This document shows positions 2,428 through 34,137 of a DNA stretch of 34,485 nt, piece after piece. Source of the stretch: Candidatus Woesearchaeota archaeon (GTDB taxonomy: Archaea > Nanobdellota > Nanobdellia > Woesearchaeales > UBA10216); NCBI GenBank assembly GCA_016180195.1, contig JACPBS010000013.1, forward strand, positions 1-34,485, given 5' to 3'. Below the pieces are notes generated by a model. That model worked only from the letters and a program-made list of their open reading frames with translations, searched no databases and had not been told where the DNA came from. The first letter of the stretch is position 1, and the number at the start of each line of letters is the position of its first letter. Position numbers and translations under genes: made by a program.

Positions 2428-3273
2428 TTAGAATTTGTATGTTCCCTCAAATACTTCTTCTGTCGGCCCTGTCATGTACACGTGTCCGTCCTCTGCCCAC
2501 TCGATCTCAAGTTCCCCTCCGGGCAGGCTTATGATTGCCTTTTTTTCTGCCCTTTTGGTAAGTGCGGCTGCAACCAGTGCTGCACAGGCGCCTGTTCCAC
2601 AGGCAAGCGTTTCTCCTGATCCTCTTTCCCAGACCCTCATTTCCATGTGGTTAATGTCAGATATTTTTGCAAATTCCACGTTCGTCCTTTTTGGGAACAG
2701 GGGATGCCTTTCAATCAGTGGGCCGGCTCCTCTGACCATTTCGTCGCTCAGATCATCTGTGAATATTATGCAGTGTGGGTTCCCCATCGACACTGCTGTA
2801 AAAGTTATCTTTTTTCCGTCTGCCTCAATTTCTTCGTTCAGAACCATTGGCTTTTCTATTGCTACAGGGATTTCCTTCCCATCAAGCACAGGGACCCCCA
2901 TGTTGACCTTTGCGCCCCATATGGATCCATTCCTTGATATGAGCTCAACATCCTTTATTCCTGACCCTGTGTCTATTTTCATTATCTTCTTGTTCGTAAG
3001 CCGGTGCTCGAAGACGTATCTTGCAAAGGATCTTATTCCGTTGCCGCACATCTCTGCCTCGCTTCCGTCTGAGTTGAATATACTCATCCTGAAGTCGGCT
3101 TCCTTTGAGTCGAAGACCAGTATTACTCCGTCGCTTCCGACCCCGAAGTGCCTGTCTGATATCTTCCTTGAGAACTCGGGCCAGTTTATGCTGTAGTAGT
3201 TGGTTGTCATGTCTATGAATATGTAGTCATTCCCTGTTCCCTGCATTTTTGTGAACCTGATTTTTTCCATCAT
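2428..3273 (-). CDS. dapF: Diaminopimelate epimerase
   Basis: Converts LL-diaminopimelate to meso-diaminopimelate, the penultimate step of lysine synthesis. The 281-residue protein opens with the family signature FTKMQGTGNDY. It has both active-site cysteines, Cys76 in EMCGNGIR and Cys225 in LACGTGACA, each in one half of the pseudosymmetric fold. The frame is open 22 codons further upstream, but a TATA-like box (about 3293-3302) sits 20-29 bases before the double ATG at 3273/3270, so I start at 3273 (3270 is equally possible). This gives dapF its own promoter inside the lysine cluster, just after lysA. It is cotranscribed with the UPF0489-type gene that begins at its stop codon. Confidence 0.96.
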   Translation of the reverse strand: MMEKIRFTKMQGTGNDYIFIDMTTNYYSINWPEFSRKISDRHFGVGSDGVILVFDSKEADFRMSIFNSDGSEAEMCGNGIRSFARYVFEHRLTNKKIMKIDTGSGIKDVELISRNGSIWGAKVNMGVPVLDGKEIPVAIEKPMVLNEEIEADGKKITFTAVSMGNPHCIIFTDDLSDEMVRGAGPLIERHPLFPKRTNVEFAKISDINHMEMRVWERGSGETLACGTGACAALVAAALTKRAEKKAIISLPGGELEIEWAEDGHVYMTGPTEEVFEGTYKF

Positions 3274-3289
3274 TTGTGGCTCTTGGGAT

Positions 3290-3303
3290 ACATTATAAAT
3301 TTT
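3290..3303 (-). promoter_or_regulatory. TATA-like box of dapF
   Basis: On the minus strand the lysA-dapF gap contains AATTTATAATG, 20-30 bases before the dapF ATG. The spacing fits an archaeal TATA box with a leaderless start, suggesting that dapF and the two genes after it can be expressed apart from the main lysine operon. Confidence 0.5.
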
Positions 3304-3319
3304 TTCATAGAATGAGTGA

Positions 3320-4561
3320 TTAGTCAAGTCCGAATTCAAGGTGTTCGAACGTCTCCCTTTTCCTGATAACCCTTGCTTCCTTGCCTTTTACCAGTATCTC
3401 TGCGGGCCTTGGCCTTGTGTTGTAGTTTGATGACATCGAGTAGCCGTAGGCTCCGGCGTTTAGTATTGCCAGTACATCTCCTTCCTTTATTTCAGGCATT
3501 TCCCTGTTGACTATGCCGTGCTCGTCTCTTGTGAACACGTCTCCTGATTCGCATATATTTCCTGCTATTGCTATTTTCTGCTTCTTTTCTGCTTCAACGT
3601 TGCTTGCATTGATTATCTCATGGTATGACCCGTACATTGCTGGCCTTACTAGGTGGTTGAATCCTGTATCCACTCCCGCGAATTTATGCTTTGGCGTTTC
3701 CTTTATCGTGTTCACAGTGCATAGGAGCGTGCCTGCTTCTGCAACAGGGTATCTTCCGGGCTCTATGTATAGATGCAGCTCTTTCCCGTATTCGCTGCAG
3801 AATGCTGTGAACTTCTCGGTTATTTCCATTCCGAGTTTTTTGATGTCCAGCCTTTCCTGGCCCGGTTTGTACGGCACCCCGAGTCCTCCCCCGAAGTCAA
3901 TGAACTCTAGTCCTTCAATCTCATTTGCTGTTTTCAGCAGCATGGCCATTGCCTGGATGAATTTTTCTTTTTCAATTATCCCTGACCCGATGTGCTGGTG
4001 CACCCCGATTATCCTGAGGTTATGTTTCTTCGCTATTGCTTGTGCATCGTGCAGCTTGTCAAAGTAAATCCCGAACTTGCTGTCAGGCCCTCCGGTGATC
4101 ACGTGTCCGTGGTGCCCTGCTCCGACATCCGGGTTTATCCTGATGCTTACGCTGCTTTGCGGGTTGATCTTGCCGTACCTTTCAAGCTGGCTTAATGAAT
4201 CGCAGTTCACGAGTACGCCTTTTTCTATGGCGAATTTCATGTCCTCATCTGTCACGCTTGTGCTTGTGAACATTAGCTGCTCAGGCTTGAACCCTGCCTT
4301 GAGCGCCATCATTATCTCTCCAGGGGATATGGCATCGATATATGCTCCTTCTTCCAGCATTATTTTCATTATGTGGGGGTTTGTGTTGGCCTTGCACGCG
4401 TAATATATGCGCAGCTTTCTGTATGGTATGCTTTCCTTCAGCTCCCTGAACCTATTCCTTATTATTTCCTCGTCATAAACATAAATTGGTGAGCCGTATT
4501 TCTTCACAAGCTGGTCCGCTTCTATTTCGCCTATCATTAATCTGTTGTTTCTAGTTTTCAT
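3320..4561 (-). CDS. lysA: Diaminopimelate decarboxylase
   Basis: Decarboxylates meso-diaminopimelate to L-lysine with pyridoxal phosphate. The 413-residue protein is a fold-type III (alanine-racemase-like) enzyme: PLP lysine in YYACKAN (Lys57), HQHIGSG (188-194), a glycine-rich phosphate loop GGGLG (224-228), EPGR (267-270), and the active-site cysteine in GNICESGD (Cys337) supplied across the dimer. I start at the ATG at 4561 because it forms an ATGA overlap with the stop of the HTH gene; an upstream in-frame start at 4579 would overlap more. It is the last gene of the lysC-to-lysA operon. Confidence 0.96.
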   Translation of the reverse strand: MKTRNNRLMIGEIEADQLVKKYGSPIYVYDEEIIRNRFRELKESIPYRKLRIYYACKANTNPHIMKIMLEEGAYIDAISPGEIMMALKAGFKPEQLMFTSTSVTDEDMKFAIEKGVLVNCDSLSQLERYGKINPQSSVSIRINPDVGAGHHGHVITGGPDSKFGIYFDKLHDAQAIAKKHNLRIIGVHQHIGSGIIEKEKFIQAMAMLLKTANEIEGLEFIDFGGGLGVPYKPGQERLDIKKLGMEITEKFTAFCSEYGKELHLYIEPGRYPVAEAGTLLCTVNTIKETPKHKFAGVDTGFNHLVRPAMYGSYHEIINASNVEAEKKQKIAIAGNICESGDVFTRDEHGIVNREMPEIKEGDVLAILNAGAYGYSMSSNYNTRPRPAEILVKGKEARVIRKRETFEHLEFGLD

Positions 4562-4992
4562 GCTGTTTGTCCTCTGCAATATTCTATGTAAATTGCTATT
4601 GCAGCGTTCCTCATATAGCAGCGTCCGTTATTTTTGTATAATCCGAATGAGTCATATAGGCAGCTAAAAGTATCCTTTACTTCTTCTAAAGGAATATGTA
4701 GTTTTCTGGCTATTTCCTTGTTTACAAGACCGTTCCCTGCATACATAAGTACGCTTGCCGCCATATCGGAAATTGGTGCCCACATTCCAAATTCAGGAGC
4801 CATTCTTATTCCTTTTTCTTCCAGACTCTTTATCATGTCTTCAAGTCCTGGATACCCGTTTCTTTTTCGTGCATTATAGATGTGTGCTTTCGCAGTTTGT
4901 TTTGACAATCTTAATCTCCGGGCTGTTTCAGCTTGGTTGCAGCCTCGGCAGTATAGATTCAGAACTCTTATTTCCCCTTCGTTCAGTATCAT
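4558..4992 (-). CDS. Double LuxR-type HTH protein within lysine operon
   Basis: A 144-residue protein made of what look like two LuxR/FixJ-type helix-turn-helix units. The first (residues 3-45: GEIRVLNLYCRGCNQAETAR, then RLRLSKQTAKAHIYNA) follows the classic pattern closely. The second (about 75-118: DMAASVLMYAGNGLVNKEIA, then RKLHIPLEEVKDTFS) is more divergent. No receiver or ligand-binding domain is present. It is joined by ATGA overlaps to dapL upstream and lysA downstream, so it is translationally coupled to enzymes of lysine synthesis. A regulator of this operon or of amino-acid supply is the obvious inference. A structural HTH without DNA binding cannot be excluded. Confidence 0.75.
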   Translation of the reverse strand: MILNEGEIRVLNLYCRGCNQAETARRLRLSKQTAKAHIYNARKRNGYPGLEDMIKSLEEKGIRMAPEFGMWAPISDMAASVLMYAGNGLVNKEIARKLHIPLEEVKDTFSCLYDSFGLYKNNGRCYMRNAAIAIYIEYCRGQTA

Positions 4993-6155
4993 CTTAATGC
5001 CCTTTTGATCCTTTCCATTGCTTCCCCTAGCCTTTTGTCAGGAACTGTAAGTGATATCCTGAAATAGCCTTCGCCATCTTTTCCATAACCCGCGCCTGGA
5101 GTTATGACCACGCCTGCCTTTTCAAGCATCTCCGTTGCAAAGCTTGCGGATGTGTGTCCTTCGGGAACTTTTGCCCACATGTAAAGTGCTGCCTTTGGCT
5201 TCGTGCAACTTAGGCCTGCTCCTGTCAGGGTTTTGTGCACAAGATCTCTTCTTTTCTGGTATATGCTCATTTGCTTTTCGATGAAGCTGTCTGGGAGCTC
5301 CATTGCCTTTATTGCGGCGAGCTGAACTGCATTGAATACCCCTGAGTCTGTGTTGTTCTTTATTGTTCCCATTGCCTTGACAACCTCTTCGTTTCCCACG
5401 GCCATGCCGATTCTCCACCCGGTCATGTTGTATGGCTTTGAGAGGGAGTTTAGTTCCACTCCGATTTCCTTTGCTCCCGGCACTTCAAGGAAGCTGAGTG
5501 GCTTGTATCCTTCATACCCTATTTCGCTGTACGGGTTGTCGCTGCATGCAACTATGTTGTTGTCTTCTGCGAAATCTATCAGCTCTTTGTAGAAGCTTAG
5601 CTCTGCAACTGCCCCTGTTGGGTTGTTGGGGTAGTTTACAAATATTATCCTTGATTTTTTAGCGATTTTCCCGGGTATCTTGCTTAACTCGGGTAGGAAA
5701 TTGTTTTTTTCAAGCAGCGGCATTTCGTGGGGTATTCCTCCGCAGAACACGGTTGATGTCCTGTATGGGGTGTATCCGGGTACGGGTATCAGGCAATAAT
5801 CGCCGGGGTTTGTCAGTGCAAGGCTTATATGCAGGTTCCCTTCTTTCCCGCCGATAAGCGTTAGCACTTCCTTGTCAGGGTCCAGGATGACTCCATGCCT
5901 TCGTTTGTACCATTTTGATACAGCATCCCGGAATGCGAACATTCCTTCATAGTCCGGGTACTGGTGGTTCTTGGGGTCTTTTGCCGCCCTGGCCAGTTCT
6001 TCAACTACTGGAGCAGGTGTTGGCATGTCCGGGTCCCCTATTCCGAGGCTTATGACGTCAACCCCTTTTTTCTTTGCATCTGCGATCTTCCTGTTTATCT
6101 CCGCGAACATGTACGGCGGTACTGATTTTACCCTGTTTGATTGCTTGATCTTCAT
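4989..6155 (-). CDS. dapL: LL-diaminopimelate aminotransferase
   Basis: A class I/II aminotransferase (388 residues) that should make LL-diaminopimelate directly from tetrahydrodipicolinate and glutamate, bypassing the succinyl or acetyl intermediates. Visible family features are the N-terminal SLGIGDPDMPTP, PGYTPYR, YPNNPTGAVA (174-183), SDNPYSEIGYEGYKP, the PLP lysine in NSLSKPYNMTGWRIG (Lys240), and a C-terminal FRISL. The specificity call rests on similarity to DapL proteins and on its place among dapA, dapB, lysA and dapF, with no dapC, dapD or dapE in the window. The start is ATG 6155; a TTG at 6164 would give a TTGA overlap with the preceding small gene and is also possible. Confidence 0.92.
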   Translation of the reverse strand: MKIKQSNRVKSVPPYMFAEINRKIADAKKKGVDVISLGIGDPDMPTPAPVVEELARAAKDPKNHQYPDYEGMFAFRDAVSKWYKRRHGVILDPDKEVLTLIGGKEGNLHISLALTNPGDYCLIPVPGYTPYRTSTVFCGGIPHEMPLLEKNNFLPELSKIPGKIAKKSRIIFVNYPNNPTGAVAELSFYKELIDFAEDNNIVACSDNPYSEIGYEGYKPLSFLEVPGAKEIGVELNSLSKPYNMTGWRIGMAVGNEEVVKAMGTIKNNTDSGVFNAVQLAAIKAMELPDSFIEKQMSIYQKRRDLVHKTLTGAGLSCTKPKAALYMWAKVPEGHTSASFATEMLEKAGVVITPGAGYGKDGEGYFRISLTVPDKRLGEAMERIKRALR

Positions 6156-6160
6156 TTTGT

Positions 6161-6445
6161 TCAAATAATTGTTGACATCTCCCTATAATCTAATTCAGGC
6201 GATCTTACACTAACGTGCAGGGTTGCATTAGAATAAATGCCCTTTACTTCAGGTTGTCCTGCAATCAATCTTCCCAATTCAAATTGGTTTCCTGGGCCTG
6301 ACACGAAAAGTTCGTTTGAAGGGCATTCCCCTGCATAGCAGTTTATGACAACTGTAAGGCCCAATCTTCTGCTCATTTCCAGTGCATCTTCTTCGCTCAC
6401 ACCATCCCTAAAATCCAAGCTGAACAAGTTGTTGTCTATTGTCAT
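6161..6445 (-). CDS. Small ferredoxin-fold-like protein, tandem copy B
   Basis: A 94-residue protein of unknown function. The order strand (LFSLDFRDGVS), helix (EEDALEMSRRLG), strand (LTVVINCYAG), strand (ELFVSGPG), helix (NQFELGRLIAG), strand (VKGIYSNATLHV) suggests a beta-alpha-beta-beta-alpha-beta fold like ACT domains or the propeptide/inhibitor I9 family. It resembles its neighbour at 6466-6738 in length, register and the xFR(D/E)GV opening. A clear GGAGG ribosome-binding site precedes the ATG at 6445. It sits between asd and dapL. A small regulatory or substrate-handling role in lysine synthesis is inference only. Confidence 0.7.
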   Translation of the reverse strand: MTIDNNLFSLDFRDGVSEEDALEMSRRLGLTVVINCYAGECPSNELFVSGPGNQFELGRLIAGQPEVKGIYSNATLHVSVRSPELDYREMSTII

Positions 6446-6465
6446 TTTTTCGCCTCCGTTTTTTG

Positions 6466-6738
6466 TTATCCCTTGCGTTGGTAAGGTAAATAAGCGTTTT
6501 CTGATGTATACGTTCCGAAGAGATTGGAGTACGTTGCCGCGATTATTTCGTTCCCGTTTATTTTTTGCATTATTTCCTCAGGTCCTCTTGATGTTGTGGC
6601 CTGCATTACTGGATATTTGGGAGTTTTATTCATTATCATTGAAACTACGCTAAGGCCTGCGTCTGCTGCAAAATTTCTTGCCAGGATTTCAGGCACCCCT
6701 TCCCTGAACTCGATCAGTAAATCAACTATATCTGCCAT
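6466..6738 (-). CDS. Small ferredoxin-fold-like protein, tandem copy A
   Basis: A 90-residue protein of unknown function, apparently related to the next gene: DLLIEFREGVPEILARNFAA, then DAGLSVVSMI, aligns with the opening of copy B. The same beta-alpha-beta-beta-alpha-beta order can be traced, as in ACT or I9-inhibitor folds. There is no cysteine, signal peptide or membrane segment, so it is probably a small cytoplasmic protein. A GGTGA ribosome-binding site lies 6-7 bases before the ATG at 6738. It is 12 bases after asd and 20 bases before copy B, firmly inside the lysine operon. Confidence 0.7.
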   Translation of the reverse strand: MADIVDLLIEFREGVPEILARNFAADAGLSVVSMIMNKTPKYPVMQATTSRGPEEIMQKINGNEIIAATYSNLFGTYTSENAYLPYQRKG

Positions 6739-6750
6739 TCTTTTTTCACC

Positions 6751-7800
6751 TCATATGTAACCTTTTGCCTTCATAAGCTCAGCATTCAGTATGGCTGCCC
6801 CCGCAGCCCCTCTGATAGTGTTGTGCCCGAGAACCGAGAATTTGTAGTCAAGCACCCTGCATTTCCTTACCCTGCCGACTGTGCTTGCCATGCCTTTTTC
6901 GTTGTTCCTGTCCAGTTTTGGCTGCGGCCTGTCAGGCTCTTCCCTATAGATTATTGGCCTGCTTGGGCTGCTCGGCAGGTTTAGCTCCTTTAGCGGGTTG
7001 AATGACTCGAATGCCTTCACAATGTCTTTTTCTGTTGCTGTTCTTTCCAGCTTGACTGACACTGATTCCAAGTGCCCGTCACTCACGTTTACCCGGTTGC
7101 AGCTTGCGCTTACATTCATTAGGGCATTATCTGCCTTTCCATTTTTCATTTTTCCAAGCAGCTTCAGTGTTTCGGCTTCTATTTTTTCCTCCTCTCCCCC
7201 TATGTATGGGACTACATTGTCAAGTATGTCGAGGCTTGCAACCCCTGGGTATCCTGCTCCGCTCAATGCCTGCATGGTTGTCACCATTACTTTTTCGATC
7301 CCGAATGCGTCCTGGATAGGCTTGAGTGCCAATACCATGTGTATCGTTGAGCAATTGGGGTTTGTTATTATGAATCCTTTCCAGTTTCTGTTCTTCTTTT
7401 GTTTTTCCACCAGCCGAAGATGGTCGGCGTTGACTTCCGGTACCAGCAATGGCACGTCAGGCTCCATCCGATGGTTTCTTGAGTTGCTTGATACTATATA
7501 TCCTTTTTTTGCGAATGCCTGCTCTATCTCCCCAGCTACATTTGCGTCGAGCGCTGAAAAGACTATCTGGCAGTCGAGGTTTGGGAGGCATTCCTTTACC
7601 TTCATTTTTCTTGCATATTCGGGGATGTCTGCGGTGAGCTTCCATCTTCCCTTTACAGCTTCCTGGTATGTTTTTCCTGCTGAATTTTCGGATGCTGCGA
7701 GCTCGCTTAACTCGAACCACGGGTGGCTTTCAAGGAGTTGCACAAACCTCTGGCCTACCATTCCTGTTGCACCCGCTATGCCAACCTTGATCTTAGCCAT
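6751..7800 (-). CDS. asd: Aspartate-semialdehyde dehydrogenase
   Basis: Reduces aspartyl-phosphate to aspartate semialdehyde with NADPH, the second step of the aspartate pathway. The 349-residue protein has the N-terminal nucleotide-binding motif GIAGATGMVGQRF, the catalytic cysteine in TNPNCST (Cys150), QALSGAGYPG, and a C-terminal GHNTIRGAAGAA typical of the archaeal/fungal branch. It overlaps the 3' end of dapB by 8 bases and is part of the lysC-dapA-dapB-asd run. Its product could also feed threonine and methionine, but no such genes are in the window. Confidence 0.97.
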   Translation of the reverse strand: MAKIKVGIAGATGMVGQRFVQLLESHPWFELSELAASENSAGKTYQEAVKGRWKLTADIPEYARKMKVKECLPNLDCQIVFSALDANVAGEIEQAFAKKGYIVSSNSRNHRMEPDVPLLVPEVNADHLRLVEKQKKNRNWKGFIITNPNCSTIHMVLALKPIQDAFGIEKVMVTTMQALSGAGYPGVASLDILDNVVPYIGGEEEKIEAETLKLLGKMKNGKADNALMNVSASCNRVNVSDGHLESVSVKLERTATEKDIVKAFESFNPLKELNLPSSPSRPIIYREEPDRPQPKLDRNNEKGMASTVGRVRKCRVLDYKFSVLGHNTIRGAAGAAILNAELMKAKGYI

Positions 7801-8545
7801 CTTTTTTCCCCCAGTAGTCTTTCATTAAGTCTTCCATTGTGTAGAACCCTTTTTTTCCGTTTATCCATTCGGCGGCCATTACTGCTCCCATTGCAAATCC
7901 GCTTCTGTTTCTTGCAGTGTGCTTTATCTCTATTGTGTCTGCTTCCGAATCGAACCCGACAACGTGTGTTCCCGGTATCGAGCCTGCCCTTATGCTTGCG
8001 AAATGCAGATCTTCCGGGCTTATTTTCCCCCTGTCGTAGACCGCTTTTTTCTTCCGGTTGATGTTCTTTAGCAGGAGTTCTGCTGTGGTCTTTGCGGTCC
8101 CTGAGGGGCTGTCCATTTTCTGGCTGTGGTGCAGCTCATAGCCGTAAACATCATAGTTTTCTGCGTTGTTGAAGAGCCTTGCTGCTTCTTCTATTATCCT
8201 GAAGTAAAGGTTCACGCCTATTGAGAAGTTTGTGCTGCATATGATTCCGGTTCCTGATTTCCTGATTATCTCTTTTGCTTCTGCCGTTTGATCATACCAT
8301 CCTGTTGTGGCCATTACCATGTTCTTTTTGAGGGCAGCTACCTTTCTTATGTTTTCCAGTGCGGATTTTGGCTTTGTGAAATCAATGGCCACATCCGCCC
8401 CTTTTAGCGACGTGCTGCTTATCTCAGTATGCCTGTTTTCACCAGGAATCTTGTCTATAATTGATGCTATCTCTATACCCCTGGTTCTTGCAGCTTTTTC
8501 AACCTCCTTGCCCATCTTTCCATACCCTATTATGGCTATCTTCAT
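7793..8545 (-). CDS. dapB: 4-hydroxy-tetrahydrodipicolinate reductase
   Basis: Reduces the DapA product to tetrahydrodipicolinate using NAD(P)H. The 250-residue protein has an N-terminal Rossmann motif IIGYGKMGKEV (5-15), the MATTGWYDQ segment at the domain boundary, CSTNFSIGVN, and the catalytic signature ELHHSQKMDSPSGTAKTTAE with His139/140 and Lys143. It overlaps dapA by 4 bases (ATGA) and asd by 8, so translation of the three genes is probably coupled. Confidence 0.97.
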   Translation of the reverse strand: MKIAIIGYGKMGKEVEKAARTRGIEIASIIDKIPGENRHTEISSTSLKGADVAIDFTKPKSALENIRKVAALKKNMVMATTGWYDQTAEAKEIIRKSGTGIICSTNFSIGVNLYFRIIEEAARLFNNAENYDVYGYELHHSQKMDSPSGTAKTTAELLLKNINRKKKAVYDRGKISPEDLHFASIRAGSIPGTHVVGFDSEADTIEIKHTARNRSGFAMGAVMAAEWINGKKGFYTMEDLMKDYWGKKDG

Positions 8546-9423
8546 CTTGTCTCCATGTATTTTTCAACAACTTTTCTCAGCTTTTCCTCGTTTTGCGGCA
8601 TCATTTTGCATAACGGGAGCCTGCAGGGGCCGGATGGCATTCCTGCCATTGACATTGCTGTCTTTATTGGCATTGGATTTGTCTCTATGAATGCTGCCTT
8701 GAATATGGGCAGGAGCTCGAAATGCACCTGCCTGGCAGCCTCATAGTCTCCTTCAAGAGCCATTGCTGTCATCCGGGACACCTTGCTTGGCAGCAGGTTG
8801 CTTATTACGGATATTACCCCTCTTCCTCCAAGGCACATTAATGGGAGCGTGATATTGTCATCCCCGCTTAGCACCGTGAAATCCGCCGGCAGCTCGTTAA
8901 GCACGTCCATCATCTGCGACATGTTTCCCGATGCCTCTTTGACTGCTATTATGTTCTTGTGCTCGGCGATCCTTTTCAGTGTCGGGGTCTCTATGTTCAC
9001 CCCTGTCCTTCCCATTATGTTGTAGACAATTACGGGCATGTTTGCTGCTGTTGCTGCTGTTATGAAGTGCTGGTAAAGGCCCTCCTGTGTCGGCTTGTTG
9101 TAGTATGGGGATACTATCAGGGCTGCATCCGCTCCCAGTATCTTTGCCTGCTTGGTGTATTTTATTGTTTTTTCAGTGCTGTTCGTGCCTGTTCCCACTA
9201 TGACTGGAACTTGCCCGTTGCAGGCTTCAACCACTGTCTTTATTATGCGGTCCCTTTCATCATCGTGTATCGTCGGGCTTTCCCCGGTTGTGCCGAGTGG
9301 CACGAGCCCGGATATTCCGTTTTTTATCTGGAACTCCGTGTTTTTGGCCAGCCCTTCATAGTCAACAGAGCCGTCCTCGTTCATTGGAGTTATCATCGCA
9401 GTTATGCATCCGTGGAATTTCAT
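8542..9423 (-). CDS. dapA: 4-hydroxy-tetrahydrodipicolinate synthase
   Basis: Condenses pyruvate with aspartate semialdehyde, the committed step to lysine. The 293-residue TIM barrel has the GTTGESPT loop (44-51), the catalytic tyrosine in VYNIMGRTG (Tyr134), the Schiff-base lysine in VKEASGN (Lys162), and GDDN followed by GGRGVISV near the C-terminal side of the barrel. It is full length. It starts 3 bases after lysC and overlaps dapB by 4 bases. Confidence 0.97.
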   Translation of the reverse strand: MKFHGCITAMITPMNEDGSVDYEGLAKNTEFQIKNGISGLVPLGTTGESPTIHDDERDRIIKTVVEACNGQVPVIVGTGTNSTEKTIKYTKQAKILGADAALIVSPYYNKPTQEGLYQHFITAATAANMPVIVYNIMGRTGVNIETPTLKRIAEHKNIIAVKEASGNMSQMMDVLNELPADFTVLSGDDNITLPLMCLGGRGVISVISNLLPSKVSRMTAMALEGDYEAARQVHFELLPIFKAAFIETNPMPIKTAMSMAGMPSGPCRLPLCKMMPQNEEKLRKVVEKYMETR

Positions 9424-9426
9424 TGT

Positions 9427-10731
9427 TTAGCCCCCGAAAAATGTTTTGTGTATCTCCCTCACCGCGGTGTCAGAGTCTTCCTCCGATAAGACCATGCCTA
9501 TGTTTATCTCAGATGCTCCCTGGGATATCATCTCGATGTTTATTCCCTTGCTTCCCAGGGCGCTGAATATCTTGCCGCTTATGCCCGGAGTCCTTTTTAT
9601 CGCCCTGCCTACAACGCTTATTGATGCCTTGTCGCCCTCTACCCTTATGTCAGCGATTTTTTCCAGCTCGCCTATTACATTGTCCAGGTTGTTGTTTGAT
9701 TTTCTGTCCACGGTAACAGACACGTTCACTTCGGATGTGGAGATCATGTCGACTGAAACCTTTTGCTCGTCGAATATTTTAAATATTTTGTGCAGGAACC
9801 CGTGCATCATGAACATCCTTTCAGAATTTATGTTTATTATCGAAAGCTTCTTTTTGTAGGCTATTGATGTTATCTCTTCTGCCCCGTTTTCCACGTTCAT
9901 TGATATCCTGGTTCCCTTTCCGTCAGGATTGTAGGTGTTAAGCACCTTTACCGGGATGTTTTTCTTCATCACAGGGAATATTGTCTTCGGATGTAGAATC
10001 TTGGCGCCCAGGTATGCAAGCTCGGATGCTTCGCTGAATGAAATCAAGTCTATTGTCCTTGCATTCTTAACAATTCTCGGGTCAGCGGTCATTACTCCGT
10101 CGGCATCTGTCCATATCTGCACCTCTTCTGCGTTTACTGCCGCCCCTATTATTGAGGCGCTGTAGTCGCTTCCCCCCCTTCCGAGTGTTGTTATTTCGCC
10201 TTTTTTGTTTTTTCCTATGAATCCGGTTATTATTGGAACCTGTCCTTTGGGCATCGCAGATATCTTTTCAGATATCAGTGTGTATGATTCATCCAGCACT
10301 TCTGCAGACCCGAAATTGCTGTTTGTTAGCATCCCCAGGTCGTATGCGTTGTAGCTTTTCGCATCTATTCCCTGTGTCCTGGCGTATTCCGACACTATTA
10401 TGGCTGAGATTCTTTCCCCGAGGGACATTATTGTGTCAAGTTCTTTTTTTGAGCCTTTGAATTTTGATGTTGTTTTCCTCATTTCCCCGATCTCCTTTTC
10501 CGCAGCGCTGCTTTCCAGGTTCAGCTCCCTGATGATATCTGAATGAATTTTTTCAATCTCCTCTGCGTTTTTTCCGCCATGTGCGGTATTGATGAGCAAG
10601 TCGGTTATTTTCGACACTGCCGAAACCACAACTATTGGCTGCCTTTCCAGGCTGCCTTTTATTATGCCGACTGTTTCCCTTACCATTTCAGCGCTTCCTA
10701 CAGAGGTCCCCCCGAACTTCATCACTATCAT
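9427..10731 (-). CDS. lysC: Aspartate kinase
   Basis: Phosphorylates aspartate, the entry step of the pathway. The 434-residue protein begins with the family signature VMKFGGTSVGS and has the catalytic-domain blocks GRGGSDYSA and WTDADGVMTADPR. It ends in two ACT domains (about 295-360 and 370-430: SISVVGRAIKRTPGISGKIF), the usual site of feedback inhibition by an amino acid. As first gene of the operon it is probably feedback-controlled, most likely by lysine given the company it keeps. The ATG at 10731 lies 20-30 bases from a TATA-like box; a second in-frame ATG three codons later is possible. Confidence 0.96.
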   Translation of the reverse strand: MIVMKFGGTSVGSAEMVRETVGIIKGSLERQPIVVVSAVSKITDLLINTAHGGKNAEEIEKIHSDIIRELNLESSAAEKEIGEMRKTTSKFKGSKKELDTIMSLGERISAIIVSEYARTQGIDAKSYNAYDLGMLTNSNFGSAEVLDESYTLISEKISAMPKGQVPIITGFIGKNKKGEITTLGRGGSDYSASIIGAAVNAEEVQIWTDADGVMTADPRIVKNARTIDLISFSEASELAYLGAKILHPKTIFPVMKKNIPVKVLNTYNPDGKGTRISMNVENGAEEITSIAYKKKLSIININSERMFMMHGFLHKIFKIFDEQKVSVDMISTSEVNVSVTVDRKSNNNLDNVIGELEKIADIRVEGDKASISVVGRAIKRTPGISGKIFSALGSKGINIEMISQGASEINIGMVLSEEDSDTAVREIHKTFFGG

Positions 10732-18215: not shown

Positions 18216-18338
18216 CAGGCTTTGGTTTTGTCTTTGCTTATAAGGTTTTTTCTTAAGCTTTGACTGATTTTGTGGCATTTCCTTTGGTTATTTCCCCTTT
18301 TGGTCACAGAAATTATAATAGCCCCGGGCGGATTCGAA

Positions 18339-18358
18339 CTCGGCAGCCTTTTGGGCTT
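18339..18358 (-). other. tRNA-Gln intron 2 (T arm, position 53/54)
   Basis: A 20-nt insert between T stem GGCGG and T loop TTCGAAT. It forms an exact bulge-helix-bulge: outer helix TTGA/TCGA, 3-nt bulge AGT, central 4-bp helix CGGC/GCCG, 3-nt bulge GGA, inner helix AGCC/GGCT closed by CAAAA. Cutting each bulge between its second and third base releases exactly this segment. Confidence 0.85.
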
Positions 18359-18389
18359 CCGCCGTCAAGGGATCCAGAGTCCCCTATGC

Positions 18390-18418
18390 TTGGTCTTCCA
18401 GAACTTTTGTTTTGGAAT
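18390..18418 (-). other. tRNA-Gln intron 1 (D arm, about position 21/22)
   Basis: A 29-nt insert after D-loop AGTGGCCAA and before D-stem GCAT. It carries an inner helix TTCCA/TGGAA. A relaxed bulge-helix-bulge can be drawn with bulges AAA and AAG and a central GGCC/GACC helix that has one mismatch. The ends could shift by one or two bases because AA flanks both sides. Confidence 0.7.
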
Positions 18419-18465
18419 TTGGCCACTACACCACGGGGCTATCGGTTCCGAAAAATCTGTCTTGG

Positions 18466-20966: not shown

Positions 20967-21737
20967 TCACCTTATGTGTTTTTGGAGCTCCTTTGCCTTT
21001 TCAAGGCCGATTGTTATCATCTTTTCAACTTCCTCTATTGTAAGGGGGTATTCATTTCCCTTTTGAAGCGCGCTTATCTTTCCCTCTGAGCTTGTTACTG
21101 TTAGCCTTGTCTCTGCTACCTCTTCTTCCTCCGCATCAGGATCGACAATCATGTAAGGGCCGACCTTGTATACGGTGACTGCTATTGGTAGCTTTTTTAT
21201 TGGCAGCTGTTTGTCGGTCCTTTTTTTGTAGTCTATCTGTTTGTCCTCATATTTAGGGAGCTTGGTGTCCTTTATCGCTGCAAGCGCTGCAAGCGCTCCT
21301 GCGTCTATGAGGTTGCCGCTTGCATTTATGGTTACAAGGTCTATAGCTGTGTTCCATACCTTTTCACCTTTTTCAAGGCATAGCTGCTTTGTGTCTATTG
21401 CTTTTGACTCGCGTATCCCGCGGTCGATGACCCTTGCCAGCTCCACCGCCTCTGCGCCTGGCGGTCCTGATTCAAATTCCGGGCTTGCTATTGGGGATAG
21501 TTCTGCCCCTACCATCAGGTTGCCTTCTTCAGGAGTGTCCGGGTAAGGTTTTTCAACGCTCATCTTTACCCCTGCCATTATCATTGTTTCCCCGAACTTC
21601 ACGAGGGCAGAGCCTTCGGCATTCCTGCTTATTCCTGTTTGTACCTCTATTTTCCTGAACTCATCAAGTTTTCTTCCATCAAATCTTTTGTTTCGTTCAA
21701 GGAACCTTAGCAAATGTGCTTTTTTTTCATTCTTCAT
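20967..21737 (-). CDS. rrp42: Exosome complex subunit Rrp42
   Basis: The non-catalytic RNase PH-like ring subunit of the archaeal exosome, which pairs with Rrp41 in a hexameric ring that degrades or tails RNA. It has 256 residues from ATG 21737. Features include FDGRKLDEFRKIEVQTGISR, ELSPIASPEFESGPPG and a long C-terminal half with DPDAEEEEVAETRLTVTSSE, as in Rrp42. It lacks the Rrp41 active-site signature. GTG 21746 is an alternative start. It overlaps the end of rrp41 by 11 bases. Confidence 0.94.
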   Translation of the reverse strand: MKNEKKAHLLRFLERNKRFDGRKLDEFRKIEVQTGISRNAEGSALVKFGETMIMAGVKMSVEKPYPDTPEEGNLMVGAELSPIASPEFESGPPGAEAVELARVIDRGIRESKAIDTKQLCLEKGEKVWNTAIDLVTINASGNLIDAGALAALAAIKDTKLPKYEDKQIDYKKRTDKQLPIKKLPIAVTVYKVGPYMIVDPDAEEEEVAETRLTVTSSEGKISALQKGNEYPLTIEEVEKMITIGLEKAKELQKHIR

Positions 21738-22428
21738 CTGATTCACCGCTGTATTTCTCTTTTAGTGTCGCCTTTTGGATCTCGTAGATTTCCTTGCAGG
21801 CTATTTTTCCCATTTCAAGCGCTTTTACAAGCTCTTCCTTTGTGATTTCCCCGTCCATCTGGAGCAGGGTTATCTTGTCTGTCTTGGGCATGAACGCTAC
21901 TGGTATGTCTGCGACCTCGCCTTCTGTTGATTCCTCATCATAGTTGAGGTCCACCATTATCTGCTCATTTACCTTTCCTACGGATACTGCGCTTACAAGG
22001 TCTCTCATGGCTATGCCCGCATCGGCAAGCGCTATTGCAGCTGCGCATATTCCTGCGCATCTTGTGCCTGCATCTGTCTGTGGAAGCTCGATGAATACGT
22101 CAACCACTGCATTGGGGAACTCCTCCAGGTTTAGTACAGGGAGCAGCGCTTTTTCAGTTACAAGCGAGATCTCGACAGACCTTCTGCTTGGTCCTGGCTT
22201 GACTCTTTCCCCTGATCCTGAGAAAGGCATCATGTTGTATTTGCATCTCAGGACGCCCTTCGTCGGGTCCTGTAGGAATTTCGGGTAGAGCTCTCTTGGC
22301 CCGTATACCGCAGCATAGGCTATCGTGTCGCCTATCTGGAACATTGCGGATCCATCCGCATTTTTGATGACACCTGCTTTCGCAGTTATCGGCCTGGTTT
22401 CTTCCAGTTTTCTTCCGTCTTTTCTCAT
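21727..22428 (-). CDS. rrp41: Exosome complex exonuclease Rrp41
   Basis: The phosphorolytic RNase PH-type subunit of the exosome, 233 residues. It has RKDGRKLEETRPI at the start, YNMMPFSGSGERVKPGPSRR for RNA contact, the phosphate-binding QTDAGTRCAGICAA, and the catalytic acid region VADIPVAFMPKTDKITLLQ. It overlaps rrp4 upstream by 4 bases and rrp42 downstream, so the three exosome genes are translationally linked. Confidence 0.96.
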   Translation of the reverse strand: MRKDGRKLEETRPITAKAGVIKNADGSAMFQIGDTIAYAAVYGPRELYPKFLQDPTKGVLRCKYNMMPFSGSGERVKPGPSRRSVEISLVTEKALLPVLNLEEFPNAVVDVFIELPQTDAGTRCAGICAAAIALADAGIAMRDLVSAVSVGKVNEQIMVDLNYDEESTEGEVADIPVAFMPKTDKITLLQMDGEITKEELVKALEMGKIACKEIYEIQKATLKEKYSGESDEE

Positions 22429-23123
22429 TTTTCATCACTTCTCTGTTTCTTTTTTTCAAGGAATTCCTTGATTCTATCGGTTAGCCCCGATGTGTGTGAT
22501 TCGCTTTCTATTTTCCTGATCGCCTCTTCGGCAATCATCTCATTTTCAGGCTCGCCCTGTATCCATACAACCCCGTTCTGGCCTACAGTTATCCTGCTGC
22601 CAGTTGCATCTTTTATCATTGTTATCATTGATCCCTGCTTTCCTATGATCCTTGGGACCTTGTAGGTGTTCACGTGGATTATCCTGCCTTCTCCAAGCTT
22701 CCTTAATCCCGGGGCTTTCATTGTGAGGTCTACAAGGTTTTGTGTTGTCACGTTGATTATTTTTGTGACAATGTAGTCTCCGAAGCTGTAATATTTTGTC
22801 AGGTCAGAGCCCCTCGCTATGAATTCGGAGGTTCCGTCTTTCATGGAAAGCATGGCGGAGTATGCGGAGTTTATGTCAACTCTCCATCCGTTGATGGTGA
22901 CATCGCTTATCTTCCCGATGATCGTGTCCCCTACTTTGGGCATGTATTTTCCTGAAAGGGGTATTACCCTTATCAGTCTTCCATCTATGCTTACAAGCCC
23001 AAGCTTGCCGGCTATTATCTTTTCGCCTTCCCTGAAAGTGCCGTACGAGGGAAGGTAATCCATTCCTGTTGCGAGATCCTCGCCAGGAACAACTATCTCC
23101 TTTTCCTTTATCATAATTCCCAT
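22425..23123 (-). CDS. rrp4: Exosome cap subunit Rrp4
   Basis: RNA-binding cap of the exosome, 232 residues: an N-terminal domain (VVPGEDLATGMDYLPSYGTF), an S1 domain (about 65-135: VGDTIIGKISDVTINGWRVD) and a KH domain (about 148-200: KVPRIIGKQGSMITMIKDAT). The C-terminal tail is charged. A GTGATG ribosome-binding context precedes ATG 23123. It sits between SBDS and rrp41. Confidence 0.95.
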   Translation of the reverse strand: MGIMIKEKEIVVPGEDLATGMDYLPSYGTFREGEKIIAGKLGLVSIDGRLIRVIPLSGKYMPKVGDTIIGKISDVTINGWRVDINSAYSAMLSMKDGTSEFIARGSDLTKYYSFGDYIVTKIINVTTQNLVDLTMKAPGLRKLGEGRIIHVNTYKVPRIIGKQGSMITMIKDATGSRITVGQNGVVWIQGEPENEMIAEEAIRKIESESHTSGLTDRIKEFLEKKKQRSDEK

Positions 23124-23130
23124 TTTTTCA

Positions 23131-23853
23131 TCACTTCGATTTTATTATTTTTGTTTCGCAGCTTCCATGCGTGAGCTTGTTTAGCTGGTCGAATAGCTCT
23201 TGCTGGAGCCCTGCTGGAACCTCTATCCTTGCGGACAGGCTGCCGTCGTTCTGCCAGCTGTCTTCAAGGATTGTTCCGTGGTTTTTCAATATTGAGTATG
23301 ATTTTGATGCGTGCTGTGCGGGTATTTTGACCTCTATTTCCCTTATTTCAAATCTTATTGGGAGGATGGGCCGTATCCCTTTGATTATGTCATTGAGCTG
23401 GTCCTCTGCTCTCTTGTGGTCGTCTATGTGCAGTTTTGCCTCTTCTATCGCATTTGCTATCCTCTGAGGGGGGTGTGGCAGGTTTGTCCTGGGGTCTATT
23501 CCGTTCTTGTGGATGGTGTTTATTATCCAGTTGAGCTTCTGCTCCCTTTTTTTATCCCTGTACTCGGCCGTAAGCTGGATTTCGCCTTTCGATATTATGG
23601 CAGCTATCATTTCATCGTGGTTGTCTGTTTTGAACACGTTCTTGAGCGTGTGTTCGGATGCAAGGAGGCCTTTGTGCGCGTCCGAGAAAATTTTGTCAGA
23701 AAGTATGACGTCCTTCATGCTCATTGGCTTTCCTGCCTTCAGGTCCATTGCAGCATCGGGATTTATTGCTACCTCGAATTTTTCACCCGCGGTTTTTAGT
23801 CTTGCGATGTTGAAGCTGGGCCTTTCGCCCCCGTACATCTGGTCGCCCTTCAT
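23131..23853 (-). CDS. Ribosome maturation protein SBDS (Sdo1)
   Basis: Archaeal homologue of the Shwachman-Bodian-Diamond protein, which in eukaryotes releases eIF6 from the 60S subunit. The 240-residue protein has the N-terminal FYSH domain (about 10-95: LKTAGEKFEVAINPDAAMDL), the helical domain (100-165: NWIINTIHKNGIDPRTNLPH) and a C-terminal ferredoxin-like domain (PIRFEIREIEVKIPAQHASK). An ATGA overlap joins it to psmA. It is placed between proteasome and exosome genes, as in many archaea. Confidence 0.95.
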   Translation of the reverse strand: MKGDQMYGGERPSFNIARLKTAGEKFEVAINPDAAMDLKAGKPMSMKDVILSDKIFSDAHKGLLASEHTLKNVFKTDNHDEMIAAIISKGEIQLTAEYRDKKREQKLNWIINTIHKNGIDPRTNLPHPPQRIANAIEEAKLHIDDHKRAEDQLNDIIKGIRPILPIRFEIREIEVKIPAQHASKSYSILKNHGTILEDSWQNDGSLSARIEVPAGLQQELFDQLNKLTHGSCETKIIKSK

Positions 23854-24602
23854 TTTTCGCTTTTCCTTGCTTTCCCTTTGACTTCGTCTATGAGCTTTTC
23901 GATTTCCTGCCTTTTCATCTTTGTGAATTTTTTTTCGTCTGTTCTTATGTAGGCGCCGTCTATTCTTTCGCTTGAGAATTCCTTGTCAAGGATCTTGTAC
24001 AGCCCTTTTATTCCCAGCTTTATTGCCTCCTGGATTGTCATGTCCTCCTTGTATTCCTTTCTTAGCATCTCCTCTATCTCGGTTTCCCCTTCCCCGATTA
24101 CTGTTGCCTTGTACTGGAAGAATATTCCTGTCGGGTCTGTTTCGAATAGTTTTGGCCCTGTTGTGTCGATGCCTGCAATAAGTATGGATACTCCAAACGG
24201 CCTTAATCCGCCGCTTTGTGTGCAAATCTGCTTTAGGTTGCATATATCCTTAACTATGCTTATGGAATCAATAGGGGTGTCATATGTTACCTTGTGCTGC
24301 TGGGCCCTTAGCTGTGCCCTTTCTATCAGGACTCTCGCGTCTGATAATATTCCTGATGCTGTTGCCCCGATATGGTCATCTATCTGGTATACCTTTTCGA
24401 CTGCTTCGGGCACGACTAGGGTGTCAACAATCCTTTTGTCAGTTACCAGGACTACGCCTTCCTTGCATACAATGCCAATTGCAGTGCTTCCTTGCCTGAC
24501 TGTTTTTTTTGCATATTCCACCTGGAGCAGCCTGCCGTCCGGGCTGAACATTGTTATTGCCCTGTCATAACCCATCAGTTGGTGTGGCATTGGTTGTTGC
24601 AT
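23850..24602 (-). CDS. psmA: Proteasome alpha subunit
   Basis: Outer-ring subunit of the 20S proteasome, 250 residues from ATG 24602. The N-terminal gate and H0 region GYDRAITMFSPDGRLLQVEY, then AKKTVRQGSTAIGI, is canonical; the lysine of the ATPase-docking pocket is in the KGVVLVTDKR-type strand region. The start is chosen by a GGAGG ribosome-binding site 6 bases before it; a TTG at 24617 would give a TTGA overlap with pop5. The beta subunit is not in the window. Confidence 0.95.
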   Translation of the reverse strand: MQQPMPHQLMGYDRAITMFSPDGRLLQVEYAKKTVRQGSTAIGIVCKEGVVLVTDKRIVDTLVVPEAVEKVYQIDDHIGATASGILSDARVLIERAQLRAQQHKVTYDTPIDSISIVKDICNLKQICTQSGGLRPFGVSILIAGIDTTGPKLFETDPTGIFFQYKATVIGEGETEIEEMLRKEYKEDMTIQEAIKLGIKGLYKILDKEFSSERIDGAYIRTDEKKFTKMKRQEIEKLIDEVKGKARKSEK

Positions 24603-24613
24603 TTTTTCCCTCC

Positions 24614-24949
24614 TCAATAGTATTTTTTAATGGCCTTTTTCAGTATGCCGCTCATTCCCAAGCTTCTTATTATGGCCTGGTTTTCCCCGGCCTTTCCGGC
24701 CAGGCACAGCGATGCTTTGATGTTATCCATGCTTTTTCTTTCCCCGGATAATATACCGCGCTGCCTCTTGATGTCCCACTTGTCTTGGAGTACCCTGAGC
24801 TTTGATCTGGAAAGCCCGGATGTCCCTGTGAAGCTTGAGATTGCGTCTACAACTGCTTCTTTTGCATCTGCGAATGAGTGCTTTTCAGAAGAGATTATCT
24901 CGAATACCAAATATCGCCTTTTGTCTTTTAAGCTCGGCAATGATCTCAT
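24614..24949 (-). CDS. rnp2: RNase P protein component Pop5
   Basis: Ribonuclease P protein component 2 (Pop5), 111 residues, helping the RNA subunit process tRNA 5' ends. The family opening LPSLKDKRRYLVFEI, the middle LRVLQDKWDIKRQRGILSGE and the end SGILKKAIKKY match Pop5/Rpp14. It is the first gene of the minus-strand block; a TATA-like CTTTAAATATAATC (about 25018-25031) implies a leader of about 50 bases. Confidence 0.92.
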   Translation of the reverse strand: MRSLPSLKDKRRYLVFEIISSEKHSFADAKEAVVDAISSFTGTSGLSRSKLRVLQDKWDIKRQRGILSGERKSMDNIKASLCLAGKAGENQAIIRSLGMSGILKKAIKKYY

Positions 24950-26791: not shown

Positions 26792-27031
26792 ATGCCGAAA
26801 TACAAGGTTATATATGACAAAATCACTTGTATTGGTGCAGCCAGTTGTGTTGCGGTGGCACCTAAATTCTGGGAGCTTGTTGGTGACAAGGCAATCCTCA
26901 AGGGTGCGAAGTTCAATGAGCAGACCAAGAAGTTCGAGCTGATTGTTGATTTGCCTGAGGACATCAAGCTTAACCTGGATGCAGAGGCTGTGTGCCCTGT
27001 TGCCGCTATAAAGGTTGAGAAGCTGGAATAG
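26792..27031 (+). CDS. Three-cysteine single-cluster ferredoxin
   Basis: A 79-residue monocluster ferredoxin of the Thermotoga/Pyrococcus kind. Cluster ligands are Cys13, Cys19 and Cys68 (CIGAASC and AVCPVAAI). The position of the second ligand (residue 16), normally Cys or Asp, is Ala, so a [3Fe-4S] or a labile [4Fe-4S] cluster is expected. Acts as a small electron carrier. A TATA-like CTTTTTAATATG lies about 20-31 bases before the ATG. The 3' end overlaps the convergent UPF0489-type gene by 26 bases. Confidence 0.9.
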   Translation: MPKYKVIYDKITCIGAASCVAVAPKFWELVGDKAILKGAKFNEQTKKFELIVDLPEDIKLNLDAEAVCPVAAIKVEKLE

Positions 27032-27737
27032 AACTGTATAGCGAGTTTAGGGCTTTTACAACTTTTTCTTCCATTTCATTTACCAGTTCTGGAGGGGCGA
27101 AGGTTTGGGGCGTCTGGGATCTGGCTATTGTTATGAGGTTAGGTTTCGGAAATTGCGCCAGCCACTGCATTGCTGAATTTATGCTCACTTCTGGATTCGG
27201 ATTAGGATGGCCTTCCAGGACAATGCCATCCAAGTCTATGTCAACGATTATCCTCGTATTGGATAATTTGACATCTCGGTATTTGTTAGAGAAACGGATT
27301 ATGGCCCTTGTCTGGGGCTCTCCATTCACCCAGTTGATTGTGTTTGTTGAGAGCTTGGTCAGGTTTTTTAATGGGGCATTAAGGCCGTAAATTGCCATGT
27401 ATTCGGGGAATCTTGGGTTGTAGAAGAGCAGGGTATTTATAAGGCCATAATAGGCTGCTGTGGAAATAAATGATGAGATGCCGACGTGCAATTGAGAGTA
27501 TGCCCTCCAGTCAATATTTCCTTTCATTGCAATATCAATCGGCTTTACGTCCCATGCAACCATGTCGGAGTGGGAGTCTATATGCAAAACCAGGAATGGT
27601 TCTCCATTAAAGCAGCTTTTCCAATAGAAAAGCACCTCATTATGCGGGTCTACAACTATGGTTTCTATGCCTGCAATCTTGAGTTCTTTTGGAGGGGTGT
27701 AGATTCCTCTTGTTATTGGACTGGCAGCATAGGTCAT
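27006..27737 (-). CDS. UPF0489-type, arginase-fold-like protein (copy 2)
   Basis: A 243-residue relative of the protein at 1663-2427, with the same probable metal-site motifs: VVDPHNEVLFYW (28-39), IDSHSD (53-58), DIDLD (166-170) and ITIARSQTP (202-210). The N-terminal IYTPPKELKIAGI is also shared. The segment between the second and third motif differs most, as expected for a substrate-specific part. It stands alone with its own A/T-rich promoter (about 27750-27765), away from the lysine genes. Enzymatic role unknown. Confidence 0.72.
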   Translation of the reverse strand: MTYAASPITRGIYTPPKELKIAGIETIVVDPHNEVLFYWKSCFNGEPFLVLHIDSHSDMVAWDVKPIDIAMKGNIDWRAYSQLHVGISSFISTAAYYGLINTLLFYNPRFPEYMAIYGLNAPLKNLTKLSTNTINWVNGEPQTRAIIRFSNKYRDVKLSNTRIIVDIDLDGIVLEGHPNPNPEVSINSAMQWLAQFPKPNLITIARSQTPQTFAPPELVNEMEEKVVKALNSLYSSIPASQPL

Positions 27738-34024: not shown

Positions 34025-34137
34025 GCGGGGGTGCCGGAGTGGCCAAACGGGCCAGGCTTAGGACCTGGTGGCTTAGTGCCTGCGCGTGTTCGAATTGGCA
34101 ATCAGTATCGATTGCAATGAAAGTCACGTCCCCCGCA
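34025..34137 (+). tRNA. tRNA-Leu (anticodon TAG), T-loop intron
   Basis: Acceptor stem GCGGGGG/CCCCCGC with discriminator A and no encoded CCA. D stem CCG/CGG with loop GAGTGGCCAAA; anticodon stem CCAGG/CCTGG with loop CTTAGGA (anticodon TAG, codon CTA); a class II variable arm of 15 nt with GGC/GCC; T stem GCGTG/CACGT. The T loop is TTCGAAT once a 29-nt intron is removed. A TATA-like AATATTAAATAC lies about 30 bases upstream. Confidence 0.93.
34095..34123 (+). other. tRNA-Leu intron (T loop, position 59/60)
   Basis: A 29-nt insert between TTCGAA and T of the T loop. It forms a bulge-helix-bulge: outer helix is the T stem GCGTG/CACGT, bulge AGT, central 4-bp helix TTCG/TGAA (one G-T pair), bulge AAT, inner helix GCAATC/GATTGC. 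Cutting both bulges between the second and third base removes exactly this segment. Confidence 0.85.

Follow-up and report, generated by a model that had tools for sequence, protein, structure and literature searches.

A twice-interrupted tRNA-Gln(CTG) gene in a Woesearchaeota genome rich in non-canonical tRNA introns and with a single detected alpha-type splicing endonuclease

A tRNA-Gln(CTG) gene carrying two non-canonical bulge-helix-bulge (BHB) introns was identified in a 34,485-nt stretch of archaeal DNA (the window), from a genome that is placed in the Woesearchaeota because the nearest named relatives of its tRNA splicing endonuclease (EndA) come from Candidatus Woesearchaeota metagenome-assembled genomes. 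The introns lie in the D arm and the T arm, outside position 37/38, as the initial annotation had proposed; their sites are 21/22 and 53/54, and their excision at the coordinates given there leaves a 73-nt cloverleaf whose joints agree with those of orthologous genes. The gene is real, functional-looking and of a known intron kind. It is very probably a working gene, the sole one detected for tRNA-Gln(CUG), in which inserts presented in BHB motifs would be cut out by a lone EndA and the exons joined by RtcB into the 73-nt tRNA. Its parts are the following:

18319-18440, minus strand: tRNA-Gln(CTG) gene, two introns, 122-nt RNA
18419-18440, minus strand: exon 1, with the acceptor 5′ strand, the D-stem 5′ strand and the D loop to A21; joint confirmed by the uninterrupted orthologs of genomes G008 and G006
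18390-18418, minus strand: D-arm intron, 29 nt, site 21/22, relaxed BHB; supported by motif pairing and by D-arm interruptions in another nine Gln tRNAs from related genomes
18359-18389, minus strand: exon 2, with the D-stem 3′ strand, the anticodon arm (CTG), the variable region and the T-stem 5′ strand; identical stretch in G008
18339-18358, minus strand: T-arm intron, 20 nt, site 53/54, full BHB; supported by motif pairing
18319-18338, minus strand: exon 3, with the T loop, the T-stem 3′ strand, the acceptor 3′ strand and A73; CCA is not encoded

The gene and its joints are read directly from the DNA. Deletion of 18390-18418 and 18339-18358 from the minus strand yields AGCCCCGTGGTGTAGTGGCCAAGCATAGGGGACTCTGGATCCCTTGACGGCGGTTCGAATCCGCCCGGGGCTA, a tRNA-Gln of 73 nt that forms a perfect cloverleaf (MFE -32.9) with all stems and invariant bases intact. 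Uninterrupted Gln(CTG) orthologs were found in G008 and G006, two genomes of the same family, and both have the same sequence over the two joints (GGCCAAGCAT and GACGGCGGTTCGAATCC), matching the prediction. In the window, the gene was reported neither by ARAGORN nor by Rfam at the gathering threshold, which is expected since the tRNA is interrupted twice. It was matched by a covariance model built here from uninterrupted and spliced tRNAs (E = 1e-4 over 101 kb) and was recovered genome-wide by models with inserts learned from the genome's own tRNAs; the spliced Gln(CTG) had contributed to these models, and their scores are therefore not independent evidence.

Both splicing motifs are likewise directly visible, and the description of the T-arm motif as textbook and the D-arm motif as relaxed was borne out, all helices being present in the one against a C-A mismatch and a missing outer helix in the other. 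The T-arm motif is a complete BHB, in which a central helix CGGC/GCCG (4/4 pairs) is set between the 3-nt bulges GG^A and AG^T, with an outer helix TTGA/TCGA (one G-U) and an inner helix AGCC/GGCT. In the D-arm motif, the 3-nt bulges AA^A and AA^G enclose a central helix GGCC/GACC with 3/4 pairs (one C-A); a 5-bp inner helix TTCCA/TGGAA follows, and an outer helix is lacking. With the cut sites fixed as given, none of 200,000 shuffles per intron matched the central and inner helices together. Since the exon and the intron both end in CCAA, the D-arm cut could be shifted by as much as 4 nt and still yield the same product; of the splices tested, the placement in the initial annotation forms the best BHB. 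Removal of the inserts restores a canonical tRNA, as for archaeal BHB tRNA introns.

Related genomes provided a further direct observation, the recurrence of the D-arm site. The D arm is interrupted in ten Gln tRNAs, the Gln(CTG) described here and nine in related genomes, and the position of the best cut coincides in all but one of these nine. Their inner stems mostly differ and yet are complementary (TTCC/GGAA, TCCTCAT/ATGGGGA, TGCC/GGCA, TTCTC/GAGAA, TCTAAGTTA/TAACTTAGA and others), although the stem of G043 has only 2 bp; such differing but complementary stems are what a conserved splice site would be expected to show. By our reading of the sequence, the Gln(CTG) gene of G022 has three introns. 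The 53/54 intron was seen in none of the other Gln(CTG) genes read, and it is therefore probably a recent gain.

In the scheme that we consider very probable, the precursor of tRNA-Gln would fold so that each insert is displayed in a bulge-helix-bulge, the T-arm insert through its complete motif and the D-arm insert through the relaxed motif in which the intron's 3′ end pairs with the D-loop GGCC. The single EndA would act alone, cutting in the two 3-nt bulges on either side of each insert, and RtcB would then ligate the exons into the 73-nt tRNA; transcription of the gene and the order of intron removal are presumed in this scheme. Counting against it are the mismatch in the D-arm central helix, the missing outer helix and an EndA of a type described as inefficient on such introns.

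It might be supposed that the gene is instead a decayed pseudogene with random insertions, and the silence of ARAGORN and Rfam at default thresholds would be in keeping with this. The stems and invariant bases of the cloverleaf, however, are intact once the inserts are removed, BHB motifs flank both inserts, and many further tRNAs of the genome hold inserts of the same kind. The initial annotation had named a second, uninterrupted Gln(CTG) copy as the sign of a pseudogene, and model searches of the genome found no other Gln(CTG) gene; the two Gln genes recovered are this one and Gln(TTG), which is interrupted at 37/38. Decay is regarded as very improbable. That the genome needs this gene also agrees with codon use, CAG outnumbering CAA by 123 to 52 in 26 ORFs of the window. 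Even less credit is given to splicing by the inserts themselves, as group I-like elements: archaeal group I introns are on record, in a paper in which Woesearchaeota are mentioned (PMC6125680), but 20 and 29 nt are far below ribozyme length, Rfam matches no group I intron in the window, and the motif is that of a BHB. As a separate observation, a repeat of a tRNA-Gln 3′ end (CCGCCCGGGGCTA; L212, G000:C16:3542-3574) lies ~1.3 kb downstream of tRNA-Gln(TTG) and is possibly the remnant of an attachment site.

The interrupted Gln(CTG) is far from isolated in this genome of 1.23 Mb (97.5% complete). About 33 tRNA genes were located, of which ~24 are interrupted by at least 31 introns, giving ~0.9 introns per gene; these counts are approximate, the initiator Met, the CAT-anticodon tRNA, the Leu tRNA with the probable 37/38 intron and the 59/60 site of Gly(TCC) having been read by eye only. 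The set comprises the matches of the model searches together with our reading of them, and it is incomplete, a dozen or so expected tRNAs being unlocated. Nine genes are uninterrupted, namely Arg(TCT), Thr(GGT), Gly(GCC), Arg(TCG), Thr(TGT), Gly(CCC), Cys, Ser(TGA) and Glu(CTC), and at least seven have two introns each: Gln(CTG), Asp, Lys(TTT), Gly(TCC), His, Arg(GCG) and initiator Met. The introns are distributed by site as follows:

37/38: Gln(TTG), Thr(CGT), Tyr, Asp, His, Ser(CGA), Arg(GCG), a CAT-anticodon tRNA and probably a Leu
D arm: Gln(CTG), Leu(TAA), Leu(GAG), Pro(GGG), Lys(TTT), Val(TAC) and initiator Met
53/54: Gln(CTG), Lys(CTT) and Gly(TCC)
59/60 (twelve): Val(CAC), Ala(GGC), Ala(CGC), Asp, Lys(TTT), Gly(TCC), Arg(CCT), Arg(GCG), Ile, Leu(TAG), His and initiator Met

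Among the located genes, the commonest site is 59/60 in the T loop, where T54, T55, C56 and R57 form one strand of the central helix and the T stem serves as the outer helix. With one exception, YGAA occurs a few bases before the end of these introns, and R57 is faced by C or T when it is G and by T when it is A; this matching amounts to covariation and therefore favours the reality of the 59/60 introns. A general scorer had placed the T-loop sites at 56/57 to 58/59, and targeted enumeration, pairing T54-R57 with the intron end, moved them to 59/60. The same scorer proposed an additional 10-12 nt variable-arm intron in Leu tRNAs, which was recognized as the normal long variable arm, and the pattern GTTCRANNC was discarded as a tRNA finder after giving fewer matches than its reversed-pattern control. 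One of the 59/60 introns belongs to a second interrupted tRNA gene of the window:

34025-34137, plus strand: tRNA-Leu(TAG), with a 29-nt intron at ~34095-34123, site 59/60, in the T loop

Its motif consists of a central helix TTCG/TGAA, bulges AA^T and AG^T, and the T stem as outer helix, and this gene, too, was reported by neither ARAGORN nor Rfam. From reading of the translations, the window also holds, all on the minus strand, a near-complete cluster resembling diaminopimelate/lysine biosynthesis at 2428-10731, with two small similar ORFs at 6161-6738, and a cluster resembling exosome subunits, an SBDS-like protein and a proteasome alpha subunit at 20967-24617. The proteins encoded at 1663-2427 and 27006-27737 (minus strand) resemble diverged paralogs of one family.

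The intron load is close to the 0.84 introns per gene reported with tRNAscan-SE 2.0 for Thermoproteales, against 0.21 for archaea overall (PMC8450103). As in Thermoproteales and other Crenarchaeota, several introns per gene, strict and relaxed BHB motifs, and D-arm, 53/54 and 59/60 sites are found (listed in PMC4090602). The initial annotation had linked multiple non-canonical introns to Thermoproteales and a few other lineages; the intron kind and the presence of several per gene held, whereas the host is a member of the Woesearchaeota (DPANN) rather than of Thermoproteales, and the gene is one of many. Since ~24 of ~33 tRNA genes, initiator Met included, are interrupted by the same kinds of introns, their removal must be routine. 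In other Woesearchaeales, tRNA matches of at least 90 nt numbered 27/36 in G022, 19/26 in G028, 20/44 in G008 and 3/29 in G037. The last of these genomes (G037, L263), with mostly normal-length tRNA matches and a diverged EndA, looks intron-poor and offers a natural contrast for intron load.

The splicing machinery was then looked up in the genome, as the initial annotation had advised for the EndA subunit type. One EndA gene and one RtcB gene are present, that is, a splicing endonuclease and an RtcB-type ligase. The EndA is of the alpha type, a protein of 177 aa with one N-terminal and one C-terminal EndA domain (PF02778 and PF01974) encoded by a single gene, as in alpha4 enzymes. In sequence, its closest relative is NEQ205 of Nanoarchaeum equitans (3iey_A, 1e-35), with which it has the motif EFA(A/S)KNRVAHST(K/R)K in common, followed by the enzymes of M. 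kandleri and M. jannaschii, while the best fold match of the predicted monomer is the alpha4 enzyme of Methanocaldococcus jannaschii (1a79_A, TM 0.89/0.92), which has the same two-domain length. An acidic loop near the C terminus, VDDEGD, with D162 and E164 invariant in 23 Woesearchaeal EndAs, aligns in a sequence-level comparison with DADGD of M. jannaschii and is a candidate for the L10 loop of alpha4 self-tetramerisation; it is kept here but shortened in NEQ205. In the alignments, the N-terminal site that bears an insertion in the alpha subunits of A. pernix and S. tokodaii has none in this EndA; we take that insertion to be the Crenarchaea-specific loop. Neither the structural subunit of an (alpha beta)2 enzyme nor the alpha-subunit loop of its crenarchaeal members was detected. 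This genome differs from Crenarchaeota in its DPANN affiliation, in its single alpha-type EndA devoid of that loop, in having 59/60 as the commonest site and in the position of its D-arm site, 21/22.

The enzyme present is in tension with the introns. According to a 2019 review, efficient removal of relaxed motifs is confined to (alpha beta)2 and epsilon2 enzymes, and alpha4 does not achieve it (PMC6379350); the M. jannaschii class is described as inefficient on relaxed introns, and the present genome is full of non-canonical ones. Introns at 59/60 and at 53/54 of Gln(CTG) have mostly strict or near-strict motifs and may not need a broad enzyme, which the D-arm introns probably do. The inference of a broad-specificity endonuclease in the initial annotation was therefore only partly supported: the D-arm introns are clearly relaxed, but the EndA is a lone alpha-type protein without the Crenarchaea-specific insertion and with no second subunit detected, and the broad enzyme stands as a prediction. 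Another DPANN lineage with non-canonical introns, ARMAN-2 (Micrarchaeota), has an epsilon2 EndA built of three fused units with a specificity loop, in contrast to the single-unit protein without an inserted loop found here.

One explanation, which concerns the enzyme only and leaves the reading of the tRNA gene the same, is that a diverged beta or other partner confers broad specificity on this EndA, as in Crenarchaeota and Nanoarchaeum. It draws on N. equitans, the source of the best sequence match, which uses a broad-specificity (alpha beta)2 enzyme (PMC6379350), Nanoarchaeota having been entered as alpha2beta2 in a 2014 review (PMC4090602). N. equitans, whose EndA is NEQ205/NEQ261, has a detectable beta, and none was detected here: the EndA profile, run genome-wide at E up to 10, returned one gene only. 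As a control, this profile matched the N. equitans beta at 3e-17 and a Pyrobaculum-type beta only at E = 0.04, so that a beta subunit is likely absent and a very diverged one could be missed. A function-unassigned gene located downstream of endA occurs in 57/59 relatives; in most of the loci read the two genes are adjacent, and the C-terminal domain of the encoded protein is folded like a restriction endonuclease. Against its being a partner, comparison with EndA gave an hhalign probability of 0.19%, and the fold matches listed for it are headed by MspJI and RPB5 rather than EndA. This neighbour was rejected as a hidden beta subunit, having no profile similarity to EndA and being present also in the intron-poor G037. 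On balance, a partner subunit is considered unlikely, and splicing by the lone EndA is preferred.

As a side observation on the same locus (L023, 1255-2705, and relatives L024-L052), the order endA, unnamed protein, apparent fen1 recurs; endA itself is preceded by an apparent tRNase Z gene. The unnamed protein has a winged-helix-like N-terminus ahead of its restriction-endonuclease-like domain and belongs to no Pfam or NCBIfam family.

The intron kind is known, and neither the lineage nor the load is described in the open-access papers searched, among which none on tRNA introns of Woesearchaeota was found; what is specifically surprising is that a Thermoproteales-like load occurs together with a lone alpha-type EndA. 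Because the standard finders used here (ARAGORN and Rfam) miss such tRNAs, tRNA counts for Woesearchaeota may be underestimates, as may any completeness estimates based on those counts. The rule that (alpha beta)2 or epsilon2 enzymes are required for relaxed BHB introns can also be put directly to the test in these genomes. We tentatively suggest, as a proposal still open to considerable doubt, that in many Woesearchaeota loads of Thermoproteales size, relaxed D-arm introns included, might be removed by a lone alpha4-like EndA with neither a specificity loop nor a beta subunit. If so, broad specificity would need neither the known (alpha beta)2 nor the known epsilon2 architecture.
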